From assembly GCA_903958625.1 (NCBI GenBank), contig CAJBTU010000090.1:1-34648 (forward strand): a DNA stretch of 34,648 nucleotides, written 5' to 3'. The position numbers were made by a program, and so were the translations under genes. The notes under the pieces were generated by a model. It was given only the letters and a program-made list of their open reading frames with translations. It was not told the DNA's origin and did not search any database. This DNA comes from an uncultured Ignavibacteriota bacterium. GTDB taxonomy: Bacteria; Bacteroidota; Ignavibacteria; UBA10030; UBA8401. Below are positions 1,808 to 11,011 of this stretch, in pieces. Within the stretch, counting starts at the first letter, position 1. Every line of letters begins with the position of its first letter.

Positions 1808-4800
1808 GTGAAGCGATTTTATTTCATCCTTTTTATTGTGTTTTTTGCCGGAATCCTGCAGGCGCAGCAGACATCGGGAGAGCTGCAGGAAGAGCAGGAC
1901 TATGCATTTGCGTTCGGGCTTTTTGACGATAAATTATATCAACTTTCATTTGAACAATTTAAAAAGTTCATCGATCAATATCCGAACAGCGTAAAAAGAC
2001 CCGATGCGATCTTTCTTTCGGCAGAGTCCCAGTTTCGGCTGAACCAGTATCAATCTTCTGTTTCCATCTTCAAAAATTTTACCCAGGATTATCCGAAGCA
2101 CAAACTCCGGCTTGACGCACTTTTTCGTCTCGGTGAAATGAATTATGCGTTAACGGCGTATAAGGACGCGATGTTGTATTATCGCGAAGTCTACGAAAAA
2201 TTCCCGCTCAACGATCAGGCTGGCGAAGCTGCCTATTGGGTAGGAGAATGCTATTTGAAACTCAATGATATCGCAAATGCTCAGATCTATTTCAAAGTCA
2301 GCTACGAGCGCTATCCAAAACATCGTTTAGTAGATTATGCTCTTTATTCCATCGGTTGGACACATGAGCGGAAAAAAGAATATGCAAAAGCGATTGAAGT
2401 ATACCAAAAATTAATGACGGAAAAGAAGGAGAGTGATCTTCTTTCCGCAACAATGGTCCGGATCGGCGAGTGCTATTTTCAATCACATGATTATAAAAAA
2501 TGCATTGAATATCTCACGCAGGTGCAGTCCGTATTAACCGATTCAACGGAGGTTCAGCGGAGCGAATTTCTCATCGGTGAATCATACTATAGTCTTACCG
2601 ATTATGCAAAAGCAAGGTTACAGTACGGCGCATTCTTGCAGAAATATCCGAAAAGCATCATTTACCGTGATGTGAAGTTTTCCTATGCCTGGACATTTTT
2701 GAATCTCAAGGATTATGAACAGGCGGCGCAATTGTTTGGCGAACTTTCAATAGGAAACGATGACATTGCTCATAAGTCAATGTTCCGGAAAGGGCGTTCG
2801 CTTCAATTGAGCGGAAATATTGACAGTGCATTGACAACCTATCTGGCAACCGTTGCGGCACGGCCGACGGGGGAATTTTCCGACAATGCTCTCTATGAAT
2901 CCGGAATGATCTATTTTGAAAAGAAAGATTACGCGAAAGCCCTTGAATCGTTTCTGCAGATCACAACGAAATTCAAACAAGGCGATGTGATAGCCGATGC
3001 TTTGAGAATGGTCGGGGAGACCTATCTTGCACAAAAGAAATTCGATAGTGCGTTGACTGCTTTCCGCAGTGCGGGGAAGGCTGAAACGGCGAATCCTTCA
3101 ATGAAAAGCGATGCTCAATTCCAGGAAGCGTGGGCGTTGTATAAAATGAAGAAGTTCTCCGATGCAGCAAAGTTATTTGAACAATATGCCCGACGCAATG
3201 CAAAACAGCCCCAGAATGCCGAGGCAAATTTTTGGGCGGCGGAATCGTATTTCCAGATACAGAAATTTCTGGAAGCGGAACGCTTTTACGCTGAATCATT
3301 GAACGACCTCCCTGATTCAAAAAAGGCGGACGCTCAATATGGCTTGGCGTGGTCATATCTGAAGCAGGGAAAATTCCTTCCTGCCGCCAATACCTTTGAG
3401 AAAGTGGTCGGAATTGATTCTGCAAAAAAATATACGCAGGATGCACAACTTCGAATCGCAGACAGTTATTATGCCGCCAAAATGTATGAAAAGGCAAGTG
3501 ATGCCTACCGGAATTATATCAGATCAAATCCGGCGGCAACGAATAATGATTATGCGTTGTATCAGGTGGCGAACGCCGAATACCGTACCAATAATGATAA
3601 GGAAGGGATTGCGCGGTTCACCGAACTCATGAACAAATACGCCAGGTCGCAGTATGTTGATGATGCTCAATACGGAATAGGACTCATTCATTTCCAGAAC
3701 AAACGGTATCAACAGGCTATTACCGAGTTTGAAAAACTGATTAAGAATTTCCCCAAAAGCGAAATGGCTTCGCGGTCTCAATACAGTATCGCCGATGCAT
3801 ATTATAATCTTGAAAAATATCCGGAAGCAATCGCCGCCTACAGCGATGTTGTGAAAAATTATGACAGTTCGCCGCTGGCAAGCGATGCCGTCAACGGAAT
3901 GCAGTATTGCTTTGTTTTATTAGGGAAACCGCTCGATGCCATTACGGTGATTGATGATTTTGTGAAAGCGAATCCCAATGTCCGTCTGGCGGACGAACTC
4001 TTCTTTAAAAAAGGGGATCTCTATTACGGTCAGAAACAGTATGACAGCGCCATCGTTGCTTACAAGGACTTTTTGGACCGTTTCCCGAAAAGCAAGTTCC
4101 TTGGCGATGCACACTTTTGGTTGGGAAAATCTTATCAGGGATTAAGCAATGCTCAGGCGGCGCTTGAATCGTTCACAGCCTCTGCCGAAAAATACCCGGC
4201 AAGCCGCGTTGCCAGCGCAGCGCTGTTTGAAGTCGGAGGAATATCATCGCAGCGCGGGAAACCGGATGTTGCGTTAAGCGCCTATACGAAGATCGAAGAA
4301 CAATATCCCGGTTCCAACGAAGCATCGGAAGCATCGTACCAGCAGGCATTGGTCTTGAAAGGTACCGGACAACTGAATGCCGCTGTAAAAAAATTCGAAG
4401 AGACATACGGCAAATACGCAAAGACCACCGCTGCCGATAGAAGCAAACTTGCACTTGGCTGGCTGAATATTGAATCGGAACAATACACGAAGGCATTGGA
4501 GTATTTTAAATCGGTTGCAGGCAACCGTACCGATGAGATCGCTGCCGAAGCGCAATATGCCGTCGGGCTTACCTATCAGACACAAAATAATTTTTCCGAA
4601 GCGATCGTCAATTATCTGCGCGTGCGTTACGTATTTCCTGCTGCCGTGCAATGGATAGGACGTTCGTCTTTCAATCTCGGCGAATGTTATGAAAAGACGC
4701 ATCAGATCCAAAAGGCAAAAGATGCATTCAACTTTGTCGTGAAACAGAATAAAGTAGCGGACCTTATTCCGGCGGCCGAGAAAAAATTGAAATCATTGGA

Positions 4801-4810
4801 GCAGCTGTGA
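1808..4810 (+). CDS. Large periplasmic tetratricopeptide-repeat protein
   Basis: About 1000 residues. I choose GTG at 1808 because GAGG (1799-1802) sits 5 bases upstream and the protein then begins with a clean signal peptide (MKRFYFILFIVFF, cleavage near LQAQ-Q); the in-frame TTG at 1790 has no ribosome site. The rest is a long run of TPR/YbgF-like units with repeated phrases such as YPKSxxxxDAxYxxG and A-x-xYFKxxY, from about residue 40 to the C-terminus. No enzymatic motif is seen. Such arrays bind proteins or peptidoglycan-linked partners in the periplasm. Its stop overlaps the next gene's GTG (GTGA at 4807-4810), so translation of the barrel gene is probably coupled to it. A similar pair of a ~1000-residue TPR protein and a barrel is, as I recall it, common in Bacteroidota. 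The exact function is unknown. Confidence 0.85.
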   Translation: MKRFYFILFIVFFAGILQAQQTSGELQEEQDYAFAFGLFDDKLYQLSFEQFKKFIDQYPNSVKRPDAIFLSAESQFRLNQYQSSVSIFKNFTQDYPKHKLRLDALFRLGEMNYALTAYKDAMLYYREVYEKFPLNDQAGEAAYWVGECYLKLNDIANAQIYFKVSYERYPKHRLVDYALYSIGWTHERKKEYAKAIEVYQKLMTEKKESDLLSATMVRIGECYFQSHDYKKCIEYLTQVQSVLTDSTEVQRSEFLIGESYYSLTDYAKARLQYGAFLQKYPKSIIYRDVKFSYAWTFLNLKDYEQAAQLFGELSIGNDDIAHKSMFRKGRSLQLSGNIDSALTTYLATVAARPTGEFSDNALYESGMIYFEKKDYAKALESFLQITTKFKQGDVIADALRMVGETYLAQKKFDSALTAFRSAGKAETANPSMKSDAQFQEAWALYKMKKFSDAAKLFEQYARRNAKQPQNAEANFWAAESYFQIQKFLEAERFYAESLNDLPDSKKADAQYGLAWSYLKQGKFLPAANTFEKVVGIDSAKKYTQDAQLRIADSYYAAKMYEKASDAYRNYIRSNPAATNNDYALYQVANAEYRTNNDKEGIARFTELMNKYARSQYVDDAQYGIGLIHFQNKRYQQAITEFEKLIKNFPKSEMASRSQYSIADAYYNLEKYPEAIAAYSDVVKNYDSSPLASDAVNGMQYCFVLLGKPLDAITVIDDFVKANPNVRLADELFFKKGDLYYGQKQYDSAIVAYKDFLDRFPKSKFLGDAHFWLGKSYQGLSNAQAALESFTASAEKYPASRVASAALFEVGGISSQRGKPDVALSAYTKIEEQYPGSNEASEASYQQALVLKGTGQLNAAVKKFEETYGKYAKTTAADRSKLALGWLNIESEQYTKALEYFKSVAGNRTDEIAAEAQYAVGLTYQTQNNFSEAIVNYLRVRYVFPAAVQWIGRSSFNLGECYEKTHQIQKAKDAFNFVVKQNKVADLIPAAEKKLKSLEQL

Positions 4811-6564
4811 TTAGGAAAATGAATCGATTAAATTATCACAGCAGCAGCGGATGTGTACGAAGTTGTTCTTCCTCAGTGTTGGTAAGAATGATATTGATTG
4901 CAGGCGTCCTGCTGATGGGAACTGCGTCTGCCCAGGAAGCAGAGAAGAAAGAGGCGGCGAAAAAAAATGTCGACCTGCAAAATGTGCAGCCTCCCAGGGC
5001 CGAAGCACCTCTGCCGAAGATCGATCTTCCCGAATTTGTCATCACGGGAAACGAAAAGATCGATCTGAATATCGAATCGAAAGCGGAAGACGATCAGGAC
5101 AGGATCTTTTCTCCGGCGAAACCGATTCCCGGCGAGCGTCCGGTGAATGTCGGCGAAGCGCTGACGCCGAAACAAATTAAATCGTTCACGAAAACTCCCG
5201 GTGCATTGAATGGTAAAGTTTTTGGCGGCATCGGATTTTACGGCACACCGCAATTTGACGGATGGTTCGGCCAGTATGGTCCGACAAGTTCCGTTGTCGT
5301 GAATGGATATTATTCTGAAAGTCAGGGGCATTTGAGCGATGCAGGTTTTTGGAGGGGCGGCTTGGGAGTTCGCGGTTCATACACGCTGCCGGAATCGTCA
5401 ACGGTGTTCCCGTTCGCCCAATTGAGCGGAGAAACAAAATACGGCCGCGAGTCGTATCGTGCGTTCGCATCGCGTTCGCCGTATCGTGTTCGTGATCTCA
5501 GCGGAATAGAAGTAAGCGCAGGGATCGGATCGCGGTATGCACTGCCGTACAGATCGCTAAGCGGCGTCGATTATTCTGCAAAAGCAGGCTGGAGTTATTT
5601 TTCGGCAAGCGATTCCGGGAAATCTTCGGAATCGGAATTCTCACTTAATGGAAACGCCTCCACACGGTTCTTCGAAACGGCGTTCCGGGGACAAGTGGAA
5701 TACCGGGCAACCGGATATCAAATGGATCTACCGGGAGTTCAAACCGGTCAATGGTTTGTTCTTCGCGCCGATGGGCACCAACTGCTGCTGCCGTCGCTTC
5801 AATTCTCTTTTGCCTTACAGCAGTTCCTCTACCGCGGCAATATCGGTGCTGCCGGCGGACGGTTCTACCCGAATATTGAATTGCGGTATTCCTTTACCGA
5901 GAATGCTTCGATGTATTCCGGTTTTTCGCCGACCGTAGAACGGAATACGCTGCCATCGGTGATCAAACAAAACCGGTATATACAATTCAGCGCCCCCCTT
6001 GTTCCGTCCGATGTCCGGGTGAATTTCTATGCCGGAATGGAGATCACTCCCGTTGAAGAAATAACGGCAACGGTGAAATTAACCTATAAACATATCAATA
6101 ATTATCCCACTTTCTATGACAAGAATAGTGCAAAAGTGTGGGAAGTTCTTTATCTTTCAGGCGTTCGCTCGACGAAATTTGACTTGTCGTCATCGTACCG
6201 GTTGAATCAGAAGCAGAATGTAGCGGTGTATTTTTCAACTCAAACGGTGCGGCAAAAAGATTCGACCGGATCCATGCCGTACATCCCAAAGTTTACAATG
6301 GGTGCTGCTTATCATCACTTCTTTGATTTTGGACTGCATGCAGAGGCATTTGCCGAATTCAATTCGTCGCGGAGCACGAATTTTGCAAACACCCATTCCA
6401 ATGCCGGTTATGTGTTCACGGGAATGAAAGCAGAGATAGAGTTGTTGGCCCAGTTTCGCGGTTATGCGGAACTGAACAATATGATCGATCAACATTACTA
6501 TGTGTGGAACGGGTATCAAGAGCGGACGATTTTTTTGTTGCTCGGTATCAGTTATCAATGGTAG
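4807..6564 (+). CDS. Outer-membrane beta-barrel protein, TonB-receptor-like without a plug
   Basis: 585 residues from GTG at 4807, which has GGAG (4798-4801) 5 bases upstream and overlaps the TPR stop. An in-frame ATG at 4819 is less well placed. An N-terminal hydrophobic segment (about residues 28-43, ending SAQ-E) is a signal peptide preceded by an unusual Ser/Arg/Cys-rich stretch. After a Lys/Glu-rich linker comes PEFVITGNEKIDL, then many alternating aromatic/polar strands typical of a barrel. The chain ends GISYQW, with an aromatic last residue as BAM substrates have. It is shorter than a TonB-dependent receptor and I see no plug domain. The gene sits between a TPR protein and a SPOR/ExbB/ExbD/TonB set, suggesting an outer-membrane partner of that machinery. 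The substrate is unknown. Confidence 0.75.
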   Translation: MIRKMNRLNYHSSSGCVRSCSSSVLVRMILIAGVLLMGTASAQEAEKKEAAKKNVDLQNVQPPRAEAPLPKIDLPEFVITGNEKIDLNIESKAEDDQDRIFSPAKPIPGERPVNVGEALTPKQIKSFTKTPGALNGKVFGGIGFYGTPQFDGWFGQYGPTSSVVVNGYYSESQGHLSDAGFWRGGLGVRGSYTLPESSTVFPFAQLSGETKYGRESYRAFASRSPYRVRDLSGIEVSAGIGSRYALPYRSLSGVDYSAKAGWSYFSASDSGKSSESEFSLNGNASTRFFETAFRGQVEYRATGYQMDLPGVQTGQWFVLRADGHQLLLPSLQFSFALQQFLYRGNIGAAGGRFYPNIELRYSFTENASMYSGFSPTVERNTLPSVIKQNRYIQFSAPLVPSDVRVNFYAGMEITPVEEITATVKLTYKHINNYPTFYDKNSAKVWEVLYLSGVRSTKFDLSSSYRLNQKQNVAVYFSTQTVRQKDSTGSMPYIPKFTMGAAYHHFFDFGLHAEAFAEFNSSRSTNFANTHSNAGYVFTGMKAEIELLAQFRGYAELNNMIDQHYYVWNGYQERTIFLLLGISYQW

Positions 6565-6604
6565 CGAAAATTTATTATATCACAGCAAAAAAGGAGAACC
6601 AACA

Positions 6605-7201
6605 ATGCCAAATTTAAATGTTAAAGGTGATGCACCTAAAGCAACCGGATCATCGTCAACGGGGGGCGGAGGAGGAATTCCAAAGATCGTTATCATTATT
6701 ATTGCGGCAGTCATCGGACTCGGTGCGATCGCATTCATTCTTAATACGACCGGGATCGTTAAATTGTGGGGAAAGAAAAAACCTGTCCCTCAAGTAGTAT
6801 CGCTGCCGACGGAAAATCTTCCGCCGGTCACTCAGGATACATCGCTTGTGCCGCAGCAGCAAACGGTTGCGGAAACAACAGCACCGCCGTTGGATGAGAA
6901 TCTTACAAAGGTCGAGGCCGGTATTCAGCCGTCACGCACCAAACCTTCGTCATCGAAGAACATCGTTCACGGAACAGGAATGTTCACAGTTCAGATCTCG
7001 TCATGGCCGGTCGTAGCGAAAGCGAACTTGCAGGCGCAGGTTTTTACCGATGCCGGTTTCGATGCGTTTGTTGAACCTATGGGGTCTTACTTCAGGGTTT
7101 GTGTCGGCCGTTTTGAAACGAAGTCGGATGCGAAATCACAGCTGGAAAAAATGGAACATATGCTTGAGTCCAGACCGGTTATTGTGAAAGTCGGAAAATA
7201 G
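6605..7201 (+). CDS. Membrane-anchored SPOR-domain protein
   Basis: 198 residues from ATG at 6605, which has AGGAG about 9 bases upstream; the frame runs further 5' into the barrel gene but without a good start. A Ser/Gly-rich N-terminus precedes one transmembrane helix (IPKIVIIIIAAVIGLGAIAF, about residues 25-45). A Pro/Gln-rich periplasmic linker follows. The C-terminal ~70 residues form a SPOR domain (FTVQISSWP...ANLQAQVFTDAGFDAFVE...YFRVCVGRFETKSDA). SPOR domains bind denuded peptidoglycan glycans, usually at division sites. The position between an outer-membrane barrel and exbB suggests that it ties this envelope system to peptidoglycan; that is inference. Confidence 0.85.
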   Translation: MPNLNVKGDAPKATGSSSTGGGGGIPKIVIIIIAAVIGLGAIAFILNTTGIVKLWGKKKPVPQVVSLPTENLPPVTQDTSLVPQQQTVAETTAPPLDENLTKVEAGIQPSRTKPSSSKNIVHGTGMFTVQISSWPVVAKANLQAQVFTDAGFDAFVEPMGSYFRVCVGRFETKSDAKSQLEKMEHMLESRPVIVKVGK

Positions 7202-7228
7202 TTTTTTTGTCCATTCTCTCTTCTTATG

Positions 7229-7248
7229 CTCCCTCTTTTCGGAGGGAG
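7229..7248. other. Intergenic hairpin between SPOR gene and exbB
   Basis: CTCCCTC (7229-7235) and GAGGGAG (7242-7248) can form a 7-bp stem with a 6-base loop. No T-run follows, so it is not a standard terminator. It could act in mRNA processing or attenuation before exbB. Confidence 0.35.
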
Positions 7249-7286
7249 ATACTACATGTGTATGTACCATTTTCAGAGGATCCTTA

Positions 7287-8003
7287 ATGAATCTGTTAGA
7301 ACTATTTTTGAAGGGCGGATTGGTGATGTGGCCAATCCTCTTGTGCTCCCTCATTACCGTTGCGGTGATCATTGAAAAATATATTTTGCTTTCGCGTTCG
7401 AATGTCGATCCGAAACAGTTGATGACAAAGATCCGCAGTGCACTGACGCGGAACGATATCGCCAGCGCGGTCGAAGCGTGCACAAAAGTTAAAGCTCCGG
7501 TCTCAAACATTCTTAAACACGGCATCGTCAACTATAAATATGGTCACCAAGCGGTGAAGGAAGCGATTGAACTTGCCGGGAAAGAAGAAATATTTCATCT
7601 TGAAAAACGTCTTTCCGTTCTTGCCAATATGGCCGGCACGGCGCCGATGCTGGGATTTCTTGGTACGGTGACCGGCATGATCGCCGTGTTCCACACAATT
7701 GAACAATTGAGCGGCAATGTCAATCCAAGCGTATTAGCGGCTGGTATTTGGGAAGCAATGCTGACAACCGCATTCGGACTGATCGTTGGAATACCGGCCC
7801 TCTACTTTTACAACTATTTCGTTGCCAAAGTAAACCGTTTTGTGTTTGAAATTGAGAACAGTGCGGAAGAATTCCTCTCATTGATGAAGACGGGACAGCT
7901 GGATGATGACGGCACAGGCGCAGAGAAAAAATCCGAGCGTAAATCCGCGCCGACGCGGACCGTTTTCGCAGATGATGAATATTTTGAACCTAAGGATGAA
8001 TAA
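7287..8003 (+). CDS. exbB: ExbB/TolQ/MotA-family proton channel protein
   Basis: 238 residues from ATG at 7287 with AGAGGA 6 bases upstream. Three transmembrane segments are visible: near the N-terminus (GGLVMWPILLCSLITVAVII), at about residues 110-130 (the family signature GTAPMLGFLGTVTGMIAVF) and at about residues 150-180 (EAMLTTAFGLIVGIPALYFYN). The helices and the T/G-rich signature are those of ExbB/TolQ, the inner-membrane pentamer that conducts protons with ExbD. A charged C-terminal tail of about 45 residues extends beyond the usual core. It is followed by exbD and tonB in the standard order, so a TonB system is more likely than Tol or Mot. Confidence 0.92.
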   Translation: MNLLELFLKGGLVMWPILLCSLITVAVIIEKYILLSRSNVDPKQLMTKIRSALTRNDIASAVEACTKVKAPVSNILKHGIVNYKYGHQAVKEAIELAGKEEIFHLEKRLSVLANMAGTAPMLGFLGTVTGMIAVFHTIEQLSGNVNPSVLAAGIWEAMLTTAFGLIVGIPALYFYNYFVAKVNRFVFEIENSAEEFLSLMKTGQLDDDGTGAEKKSERKSAPTRTVFADDEYFEPKDE

Positions 8004-8043
8004 GGAGCCTATTTATTCCCCGAAATGCCGGAAATATTGAACT

Positions 8044-8451
8044 ATGAAATTTGAACGTAAACATAAGATCGAACCGAACTTTAATTATGCATCGCTCACG
8101 GATATTGTGCTGCAGCTGCTGATCTTTTTCCTTATTACGTCCTCGTTCGTTTCGTCGCCGGGAATCCAGGTGCAATTGCCGAAAGCTCAGACAAGCGAAA
8201 CACAGACCGACCGTCAGACCGTTCTCACCATTACTACTTCCGGCAGGATTTACATTAATTCCGAAGAAGTGACAACGGAAACACTTGGACAAAAACTGAT
8301 ACCAATCCTCGATCAAAACCGTTCACAGGTGATCATCGTTCGGGCGGACAAGGACGTGAGCCTTCAGAAAGCGGTGCAAGTAATCGATCTTGCAAAAGGC
8401 GTCGGCGCTCAGCGGTTCTTGATCGCTACGGAGCCTGTTGAAGGGAACTAA
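8044..8451 (+). CDS. exbD: ExbD/TolR-family proton channel protein
   Basis: 135 residues from ATG at 8044. One N-terminal transmembrane helix (TDIVLQLLIFFLITSSFV) carries the proton-carrying aspartate at residue 20, as in ExbD/TolR. The periplasmic part (VLTITTSGRIYINSEEV...VIIVRADKDVSLQKAVQVIDLAKGVGAQRFLIAT) is the normal ExbD fold. It forms the proton-driven motor with the ExbB-like protein encoded just upstream. The gene lies 40 bases after exbB and 1 base before tonB. Confidence 0.92.
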   Translation: MKFERKHKIEPNFNYASLTDIVLQLLIFFLITSSFVSSPGIQVQLPKAQTSETQTDRQTVLTITTSGRIYINSEEVTTETLGQKLIPILDQNRSQVIIVRADKDVSLQKAVQVIDLAKGVGAQRFLIATEPVEGN

Positions 8452-8452
8452 C

Positions 8453-9232
8453 ATGGTCCATTCTCGGCGCGAAGTACATATCGGGTGGGTCGTTTCAGTT
8501 TTTTTTCATATCGCCGTTGCGTTGATCCTCTTCTTTTCTACCTTCCGAAAATATATTCCCGAACCGCAGTTTGTGGAGATGACATGGGGTGATATCAACT
8601 CGCTACAATCTCCCGTTCCCGAAATTCCTTCCGAACGGACTGCCGCAAAAGAAGAGATTCAACAGGCAGATCAGACCGATAATTCGGTGGCACTTCCGTC
8701 GCGACGATACCTTGATCTTCCGGATGAGGTGATATCCGTGAAACAAAATAAAAAGAATATCAGCGCGGATATTTCCACCAATACAGGACGGAACGGGAAG
8801 ATCGCTGCCGAAGAACAGCGTTCGAATATTGTCTCGAGCGGACTTGGTGCACGCGAAAATATTGCCGGTAAATCTTCAAACACTTCCAATATGAAAGTTG
8901 CAACGCCGTTCGGTGCGGGAAATGAAGCGGGAGGATTGGGAGACAATGTAGCGTTTGCCGTTCAATGGGCCGGCGGCGGCAACAGGAAATTGCTGAATGG
9001 CGATATGCCGGTCTATCCGCCTGGAGTGAATATCTCCGCCCAGATTAAACTGAAGGTAAGAGTTCAGCCGGATGGGACAGTGCGATCTGCAGCACCGGCT
9101 CAAAAAGGGGATACACGATTGGAAAATGCGGCGATGAGCAAAGTAAAACTGTGGAAGTTTGAACCGTTGCTGAGCGCCCAGCCTCAACAGGAACAGGACT
9201 GCACCATTACGTTCAATTTTACATTGAAGTAA
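8453..9232 (+). CDS. tonB: TonB-family energy transducer
   Basis: 259 residues. I take ATG at 8453, with AAGGGA about 7 bases upstream and starting 1 base after the exbD stop; a TTG at 8438 is less plausible. One N-terminal membrane anchor (VSVFFHIAVALILFFSTF) is followed by about 140 residues of Ser/Asn/Gly/Lys-rich linker, not the Pro-Lys spacer of classical TonB. A C-terminal TonB domain closes the protein (YPPGVNISAQIKLKVRVQPDG..., AAMSKVKLWKFEPL). It would span the periplasm and pull on outer-membrane partners, perhaps the barrel at 4807-6564. Its last 14 bases overlap the end of a convergent gene. Confidence 0.87.
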   Translation: MVHSRREVHIGWVVSVFFHIAVALILFFSTFRKYIPEPQFVEMTWGDINSLQSPVPEIPSERTAAKEEIQQADQTDNSVALPSRRYLDLPDEVISVKQNKKNISADISTNTGRNGKIAAEEQRSNIVSSGLGARENIAGKSSNTSNMKVATPFGAGNEAGGLGDNVAFAVQWAGGGNRKLLNGDMPVYPPGVNISAQIKLKVRVQPDGTVRSAAPAQKGDTRLENAAMSKVKLWKFEPLLSAQPQQEQDCTITFNFTLK

Positions 9233-9527
9233 TTTTCCCGTGAGCGGTCTGCTCATCCGATTCTTTAAAATAAAAGAAGTAAAAGAATCCTTCGCATACC
9301 GTCAATATGACAAGCGCAAGCGTATCTCTGTTAAGCCAGAGACCGAATCCCGGCGCGTCAATTAGGTATTTCAGCATGAACGAACTGATCGACCAGCCGA
9401 CGGAAAAGATCAGAACAAAAAATCCTACCGAAAGAAATCCTGCACTGAGCCCTTCTTTTTGATATTCGGAAGTGAAGGCGGCAGTAATACCGACTATGTG
9501 AACGTAAAAAATCAATAGTGGAATCAT
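9219..9527 (-). CDS. Small integral membrane protein, unrecognised
   Basis: 102 residues from ATG at 9527, with a GGAG 7 bases upstream on the minus strand; an upstream TTG at 9566 would add 13 residues but has no such site. Three, perhaps four, hydrophobic segments are seen: LLIFYVHIVGITAAF, LSVGFFVLIFSVGWSISSFM, and LALVILTVCEGFFYFFYF, with a polar C-terminus. I do not recognise the family. The gene is last in a minus-strand run after the sugar transferase, 65 bases downstream of it. Its 3' end overlaps the convergent tonB gene by 14 bases. The sequence reads like a real membrane protein rather than antisense noise, but it could be a lineage-specific gene. Confidence 0.6.
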   Translation of the reverse strand: MIPLLIFYVHIVGITAAFTSEYQKEGLSAGFLSVGFFVLIFSVGWSISSFMLKYLIDAPGFGLWLNRDTLALVILTVCEGFFYFFYFKESDEQTAHGKITSM

Positions 9528-9592
9528 CGTCAATCTCCAAATTTCAAGAACTATCCGGCGCACCAACAGGTGACGCGGATCGTTACGCTGTT

Positions 9593-11011
9593 CTAATATG
9601 CATCCCTCGCAAAAATAACCGCTCGGATTGTTTTTAAGATAATTTTAATGTCGAGCACAAGGGACCAATTTTCAACATAATAGATGTCATATTTCGTTCT
9701 GTCTTCAATCGGTACATCGCCGCGTAGTCCGTTCACCTGTGCCCAGCCCGTCATTCCCGTCTTCACGCGATGCCGTTCAAGATATTTTGGCACATTCGAT
9801 TTGAACTGCTCAACAAAAAATGGACGTTCCGGTCTTGGACCGACGATACTCATTTGACCCGATAGTACATTAAACAATTGAGGTAATTCATCCAAACTTG
9901 TCCGGCGAAGTATCCTTCCGATCACCGTTGTTCGGCTGTCATCTTTTGTATTCCACACAGGCCCGGTGCTCTTTTCCGCGTCGATCCGCATTGACCGGAA
10001 CTTAATGAGCGGGAAGGATGTACCGTCCAAGCCGATCCGTTCCTGAATATAGAATACCGGTCCCGGCGATGTCAGTTTGATGACGACGGCGATGAGAGCC
10101 ATCACCGGAAGCGCAATAATCAGCGCGCAGAGTGAGAACGTAACATCGAAGCCCCTTTTCAGTATTCTGTTCCAGGTTGACATGGGAATATCTTTTAAAG
10201 TGATAAAGGGTATTCCTTCGATCTCCTGAATGCGTATGCGGCTCGTCATCAGTTCGAGCATATCGGGAACCATCATGAATTCAATGTTCTTTCCTTCGGT
10301 ATCGCGCAATAGTTCTATCAGATTTTCCTGTTCGTTGTGGGAAAGTGCTACAATCGCACTTTGGATACGCAACGGTAGTATATCATTCGGCAACGAGGAT
10401 GTTGCTCCCAGATAACGGCACTGTGCCAGCATGGACGAACTGCCGGCGGCGGAATCTGCATAATACCCGAGTACCTCATAGCCGAGTGCGAAATTATGAG
10501 TGAAGAGATGAAAGATCTGCTCTGCTGTCTTATTCTTTCCCACAATCACCACCGATTTCAGTTCTTTCTTTCTTCGGTACAGCCATTGCTCAAAGCGGAT
10601 CACCAACAGTCTGCCGATCGTGATCATGGTAATGGAAGTGATCCATAAAAGAATGAACACGCCGCGGGAGAAAGAGAACTCGCGATAAAAGAATGTTGCG
10701 CTCATCATGATCATCATGCCGATGGTAATGAGCCGGACAAGGGCAAAGAACTCATCGCTCAAATGGATGTTCCGGCGCGCACCGTAAAGTTTTCGTGATT
10801 GAAAAACAAGAAGGAAGATCGGGATGAAGACGACCGATGCCGTAATATAACTTCTGATCGGGGGAACGCCGAGCGTGATCTCAAAATATCCGGTCAGCGG
10901 TGAATAGAACCGGAGCCAGTACGAAAGAAGGAATGCCGACTCGAAGGCGGCGATATCCAGAAAAATGGAAAGGAATGGAATGAGAAGATCGTTTCGCCGG
11001 GGTTTGCTCAT
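9593..11011 (-). CDS. Polyprenyl-phosphate sugar-1-phosphate transferase (WcaJ/WbaP-type)
   Basis: 472 residues from ATG at 11011. The N-terminal half has several transmembrane helices and then a Rossmann-like region (VVIVGKNKTAEQIFHLF, about residues 150-170). The C-terminal bacterial sugar transferase domain (about residues 285-472) has all the expected blocks: KRGFDVTFS, SPGPVFYIQERIG, FPLIKFRSM, LDELPQLFNVLSG, SIVGPRPE and KTGMTGWAQVNG. This family transfers a sugar-1-phosphate to undecaprenyl phosphate, the first step of exopolysaccharide or O-antigen repeat-unit assembly at the inner membrane. The particular sugar cannot be read. Its start overlaps the stop of the CorC-like gene (ATGA, 11008-11011), so the two are translationally coupled. 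Confidence 0.93.
   Translation of the reverse strand: MSKPRRNDLLIPFLSIFLDIAAFESAFLLSYWLRFYSPLTGYFEITLGVPPIRSYITASVVFIPIFLLVFQSRKLYGARRNIHLSDEFFALVRLITIGMMIMMSATFFYREFSFSRGVFILLWITSITMITIGRLLVIRFEQWLYRRKKELKSVVIVGKNKTAEQIFHLFTHNFALGYEVLGYYADSAAGSSSMLAQCRYLGATSSLPNDILPLRIQSAIVALSHNEQENLIELLRDTEGKNIEFMMVPDMLELMTSRIRIQEIEGIPFITLKDIPMSTWNRILKRGFDVTFSLCALIIALPVMALIAVVIKLTSPGPVFYIQERIGLDGTSFPLIKFRSMRIDAEKSTGPVWNTKDDSRTTVIGRILRRTSLDELPQLFNVLSGQMSIVGPRPERPFFVEQFKSNVPKYLERHRVKTGMTGWAQVNGLRGDVPIEDRTKYDIYYVENWSLVLDIKIILKTIRAVIFARDAY

Follow-up and report, generated by a model that had tools for sequence, protein, structure and literature searches.

A conserved gene module combining a TPR protein, a plugless Ton-box barrel, a wall anchor and ExbB-ExbD-TonB in Bacteroidota, with a possible role in outer-membrane constriction or tethering

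Introduction

The Tol-Pal system (TolQ-TolR-TolA-TolB-Pal-CpoB) brings together in one cluster a proton-driven motor, a transducer, a tetratricopeptide repeat (TPR) protein and a peptidoglycan binder, whereas TonB-dependent transporters working with ExbB-ExbD-TonB combine a barrel fold, a Ton box, a motor and a TonB C-terminal domain. In the Agl-Glt gliding machine of Myxococcus, an ExbB/ExbD-type motor is associated with TPR, barrel and TonB-ended proteins. Here we describe a six-gene module that shares these features, including a motor of the Tol-Pal family, at positions 1808-9232 of contig CAJBTU010000090.1 (positions 1 to 34,648, hereafter the window) from an uncultured Ignavibacteriota bacterium (GCA_903958625.1; draft genome 3.99 Mb, 100% complete). 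By computation, its gene order was found to be conserved, its barrel to have a transporter fold without a plug and with a conserved Ton box, and its transducer to be of the TonB type.

According to the sections available to us of a 2025 paper (PMC12204202), Tol-Pal is absent from Bacteroidota and undiscovered systems are expected there. The same sections describe vWA force transducers, in which a TPR gene adjoins TolQ/TolR-type motor genes and a transducer as in the module, and PorE of Bacteroidetes, proposed for the same missing-Tol-Pal gap in the same phylum. Those sections thus cover related force systems and the missing Tol-Pal, and do not describe this module.

The six-gene module and its conservation

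A first-pass annotation of the window had proposed that six consecutive plus-strand genes, for a TPR protein, a barrel, a SPOR protein, ExbB, ExbD and TonB, form one trans-envelope machine. All six were recovered at 1808-9232 (+) from open reading frames (ORFs) and Pfam domains, as were the GTGA overlap of the TPR and barrel genes (4807-4810) and the single base separating exbD from tonB; the remaining gaps are 40, 85 and 40 bases. The TPR protein (1808..4810, +; 1000 residues; Pfam TPR_6, 1.1e-80) was given a GTG start at 1808, the mechanical ORF beginning at 1790. It has a Sec-type signal peptide, judged by eye, and would be a periplasmic scaffold. A scan for promoters and terminators gave no excess over shuffled sequences.

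The genes are kept together in relatives far beyond the genus, which was the synteny check set beforehand and which supports overall the interpretation as one machine. Two sets of loci chosen by their TPR match allowed a fair adjacency test, i.e., 77 named loci (L061-L137, 25 of which repeated an already sampled genome and were counted through the twin locus) and 40 phylum-wide loci (L138-L177), picked for family diversity from the 204 of 296 phylum genomes that matched the TPR profile at E <= 1e-50. A barrel lay within 200 bp of the TPR gene in 66 of the named loci, at 274 bp in one, and was lacking in 10; the corresponding phylum-wide counts were 29 within 200 bp, three at 443-1121 bp and 8 without. 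A further set, L021-L060 (40 of 45 matches), had been chosen by barrel match and cannot serve to test barrel presence. At E <= 0.001, 44 of 60 relatives had the barrel.

Across the 115 non-redundant barrel-bearing loci, the TPR and barrel genes overlapped by exactly 4 bases in 65. Barrel, SPOR, ExbB, ExbD and TonB occurred together in 31 of the 48 named loci that had a barrel and at least 7 kb of downstream sequence, and TPR-barrel-ExbB-ExbD-TonB was present in records titled Latescibacterota (L093) and Zixiibacteriota (L124). Chance clustering of the six genes was rejected, as even highly diverged loci repeat the order. The module is genuine and ancient.

When the TPR gene stood alone at its locus, the barrel was usually encoded elsewhere in the same genome. 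In five such genomes from related families (G147, G203, G099, G273 and G079), all five loci read had the barrel followed by SPOR-ExbB-ExbD-TonB, indicating that this cassette stayed intact while the TPR and barrel genes parted. Barrel presence was also checked in 19 TPR-bearing genomes (15 identified by the TPR profile, four through loci) and in 20 genomes without TPR at the same threshold. A near full-length barrel was detected in 17 of the 19 and a fragmented one in two (G175 and G351), and none of the 20 went beyond a partial, ordinary-receptor-type match. Two more TPR genomes, reached via L104 and L108, showed no clear barrel. By eye, a glycosyltransferase-like gene, not a barrel, follows the long TPR gene in L104, L108 and L126.

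A transporter-type barrel without a plug

The 585-residue barrel protein (4807..6564, +) had been annotated as lacking a plug, and this holds. In the AF2 model (mean pLDDT 83.1, with 410 of 585 residues at >=90) and its structure alignments, residues 132-585 (5200..6561, +) form a transporter-type barrel, with 22 strands counted by eye, preceded by a low-confidence tail at residues 42-131. The top structural matches were the TonB-dependent transporters BtuB and FhuA (Z 24.5; Foldseek and VIA-align, absences from the VIA-align list not being taken as evidence). Once the tail was trimmed, the alignment began near residue 132, equivalent to BtuB residue 134 and thus past the BtuB plug.

The barrel profile matched TonB-dependent receptors in the PDB over the last strands only (5fp1, E 5.3e-7), a Pfam scan of the protein returned no match, Plug included, and an NCBIfam scan of four distant barrels gave none. 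Elsewhere in the same genome there are 28 plug-bearing receptor matches.

Ton box and TonB-type transducer

The best-conserved 8-residue window of 65 aligned barrels was LPEFVITG (residues 74-81; 5026..5049, +), at 3.2 bits per column against a median of 1.14. A Ton-box-like motif occupied this position in 64 of the 65 rows, the exception being L083, which shares its contig with L043. Similar motifs, e.g., LNEVVVTG or LNDVVITG, precede the plug in 19 of the 20 receptors of the window's own genome that were inspected by eye. As this best-conserved part of the barrel looks like the Ton boxes in these ordinary receptors, TonB very probably pulls the empty barrel, a coupling that is well supported by sequence and for which binding is predicted. 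The genus comprising L042, L043 and L047 has the barrel and SPOR genes and lacks both the Ton box and ExbB-ExbD-TonB at the locus, although its genomes carry other TonB and ExbB genes; this joint loss is confined to one genus and so perhaps reflects one event.

The transducer (8453..9232, +; Pfam TonB_C, 4.2e-6) has a membrane helix with His19, found in 40 of 40 aligned rows, a long linker and a TonB C-terminal domain (9029-9226, +; Pfam TonB_C). The whole model was weak because of the linker (pLDDT 68.8), and the modelled C-terminal domain was closest to TonB C-terminal domains (1u07, E 5.4e-4; 6i97 chain D, E 9.1e-4), the best TolA match ranking behind them at E 0.11. Upstream lie the ExbB/TolQ-type (7287..8003, +; MotA_ExbB, 2.1e-32) and ExbD/TolR-type (8044..8451, +; ExbD, 1.2e-28) motor proteins, so that MotA_ExbB, ExbD and TonB_C domains occur in one cluster, all above Pfam cut-offs. 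The three proteins fell short of the following model cut-offs: ExbB scored under both the TolQ (108.2 bits vs 221) and the ExbB cut-offs, ExbD scored 57.6 bits for TolR (cut-off 127.3), and the transducer 23.6 bits for tolA_full (cut-off 59.45).

Wall anchor and division-related neighbours

SPOR domains bind peptide-free glycan at septa. The membrane-anchored SPOR protein of the module (6605..7201, +; 198 residues; Pfam SPOR, 1.7e-6) carries this domain at residues 126-194 (6980-7186, +). Its start was placed at the ATG at 6605, which has AAGGAG ahead, the longer mechanical ORF from 6500 being unlikely as a start. Among 53 position equivalents, 51 had a SPOR domain and 23 an HU-type Bac_DNA_binding match, with HU-CCDC81 domains in some; a domain scan of the window's own SPOR protein gave no HU-type match. 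In L043, from the genus without a Ton box, a small separate HU-like gene (8228-8509, -) was seen by eye between the barrel and HU-SPOR genes.

In one branch, comprising 11 loci, no SPOR gene was recognised, and a conserved ~625-residue protein is encoded next to the module instead (L054 13173-15053, -, with ten equivalents). In the three of these scanned, an OmpA domain follows a small barrel domain. As one wall binder was replaced by another and not lost, wall binding seems to matter. FtsK was encoded a few genes upstream of the barrel in all five split loci read. Taken together, the wall-binding domains (SPOR, with OmpA replacing it in one lineage), the HU-type domains and the nearby FtsK genes suggest a function in constricting or tethering the envelope. 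Separately, in L214 the division-cluster genes MraZ and MraW (1854-3457, -) were observed on the strand opposite to the barrel cassette, a few kilobases away from it.

Distribution of Tol-Pal and type IX secretion

Neither TolB nor Pal was detected at the locus, in the case of Pal by a Pfam scan of the locus only, no genome-wide Pal search having been made. TolB (TIGR02800) was above its cut-off in none of 31 TPR-bearing genomes, including the window's own and some reached via named loci. A TolB_N marker gave weak, mixed matches (24 of 60 genomes at E <= 0.01, best 33.5 bits), and the full TolB model was used instead. The TPR protein itself scored 375.9 bits with the CpoB/YbgF model TIGR02795 (cut-off 90.1), but only as a sum over 11 stretches of the long TPR array.

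Among the 296 phylum genomes, 204 had TPR, 63 had TolB at E <= 1e-80 (scored for the best few candidates per genome), none had both and 29 had neither. In one TolB-positive genome tolQ-tolR-tolA-tolB-pal-ybgF were consecutive, all above cut-off except tolA, which was just under. In the available part of a review, tol-pal is described as prominent in Chlorobi (PMC7391070), which would fit the TolB-positive family. The type IX secretion protein SprA was found in 201 of the 204 TPR-bearing genomes and in 26 genomes without TPR; G061, one of the three TPR genomes with no SprA match, retains the whole cassette.

Genes flanking the module

A small multi-helix membrane protein gene (9219-9566, -) runs tail to tail into tonB, followed by a bacterial sugar transferase gene (9593-11011, -; PF02397, 2e-70) downstream of the module. 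Based on neighbour clustering, relatives of the two are near the module in 41 and 33 loci, respectively. Upstream, a phosphodiesterase/sulfatase-type gene (2-964, +) and an uncharacterised gene (1021-1650, +) also precede the module in several loci of the same family.

Discussion

We suggest, at close to even chances, that the module encodes a Ton-type force machine with a Tol-Pal-like job, the job being inferred from its parts and neighbours. ExbB-ExbD would act as an inner-membrane motor using the proton gradient, and TonB would transmit its force outward across the periplasm by gripping the Ton box located in the barrel's free N-terminal tail. With the plug lost there would be nothing to pull aside, and the pull may instead bear on the outer membrane. 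The SPOR (or OmpA) protein would anchor the whole assembly in peptidoglycan, probably where the cell divides, while the long TPR protein would organise the periplasmic part of the complex. The machine could thereby pull or tether the outer membrane to the wall and inner membrane, most likely at constriction. Asking for the cargo, as the earlier annotation did in calling it unknown, may miss the point, because a force or tethering function suits the parts no less well than transport does. A wider scenario is possible, though we lean against it: most Bacteroidota and some relatives outside would lack Tol-Pal, and a separately evolved TonB/plugless-barrel machine would both constrict and tether their outer membrane when they divide. 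A nutrient receptor would then have become a force anchor, and HU-SPOR proteins would connect the chromosome with the septal wall and the outer membrane.

Several observations weigh against a force machine with a Tol-Pal-like job. L119 has a Ton box with no TonB or motor genes within the locus, and Flavobacterium-like loci with TPR and barrel (L173-L175, an affiliation that is guessed) lack both a clear Ton box and nearby motor genes. Several other lineages are without ExbB-ExbD at the locus, some of which (e.g., L036, L041, L044 and L045) keep TonB there. In G031, G059 and G050, the motor may be shared, because the only ExbB-family match sits on a different contig. All 63 TolB genomes belong to a single family, and SprA is distributed in the same way (0 of 63 TolB genomes, 227 of 233 others), so the exclusion of TPR and TolB, which may go back to a single event, is no more than suggestive. 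The 29 genomes with neither TPR nor TolB at the thresholds used (e.g., G060, G063 and G064) may have a third solution or a diverged module. PorE and other proteins had already been proposed for the Tol-Pal gap, as far as the available sections of PMC12204202 go, and the placement of the module proteins in either membrane is predicted. TolB exclusion alone was rejected as proof of Tol-Pal replacement on the grounds of the single family and the SprA pattern.

The module might instead energise transport, with the barrel as a channel for the import or export of some cargo, the TPR protein as a cap in place of the plug, and TonB opening the channel by pulling the tail. The barrel fold is indeed that of a transporter, a Ton box would suit gating, TPR-barrel pairs export polysaccharide in other systems, and the TPR gene is the closest partner of the barrel, as seen from their frequent 4-base overlap. 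We nevertheless consider transport unlikely, as neighbour clustering revealed no conserved cargo gene beside the module, the wall anchor belongs to it and was swapped in one branch for another wall binder, and the TPR gene, the supposed cap, has moved away in the five split lineages. A role as an accessory to outer-membrane assembly or type IX secretion, supplying the power to insert or move other proteins of the outer membrane or cell surface, appears more doubtful still. It would account for the near-universal SprA of TPR-bearing genomes and for the PorW/SprE match of the TPR protein (132 bits, under the cut-off of 250), a match that any long TPR array may yield, and it is weakened by the TPR genomes with no SprA match, one of them with the whole cassette, and by the SprA genomes without TPR. 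Nutrient uptake by an ordinary TonB receptor with its own motor is very improbable: the module does contain TonB_C, ExbB, ExbD and a barrel of transporter type, yet its conserved order also includes SPOR and TPR genes. The ordinary receptor was rejected for want of a plug in a genome rich in plug-bearing receptors, and the first-pass view that this is not a normal TonB receptor system is borne out by the missing plug and the wall anchor.

Comparison with known systems

The force machine proposed here would bear on how the outer membrane is attached and constricted without Tol-Pal in Bacteroidota, where the module is widespread and usually has its own motor; it offers a defined gene set and one short motif as a testable handle on the question. 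The parts are of known kinds, and we found no description of the gene combination or of a plugless barrel with a Ton box in the open-access literature searched (bioRxiv excluded). To our knowledge no earlier TonB-dependent barrel works without a plug, and this would be the first. The Agl-Glt machine differs from the module in belonging to another phylum and in having many more parts.

Unlike the vWA force transducers, which end in a vWA fold and for which no barrel is described in the sections of PMC12204202 available to us, the module has a transducer ending in a TonB domain; PorE, as presented in those sections, consists of one lipoprotein that combines TPR, propeller and OmpA-type domains, and it comes without motor genes. 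The module departs from Tol-Pal in that its cluster is without TolB and Pal genes, a Ton-box barrel serves as its outer-membrane partner and a SPOR protein as its wall anchor, and its transducer has a TonB-like end, and from TonB-dependent transporters in that its barrel is plugless and its cluster includes TPR and wall-binding genes.

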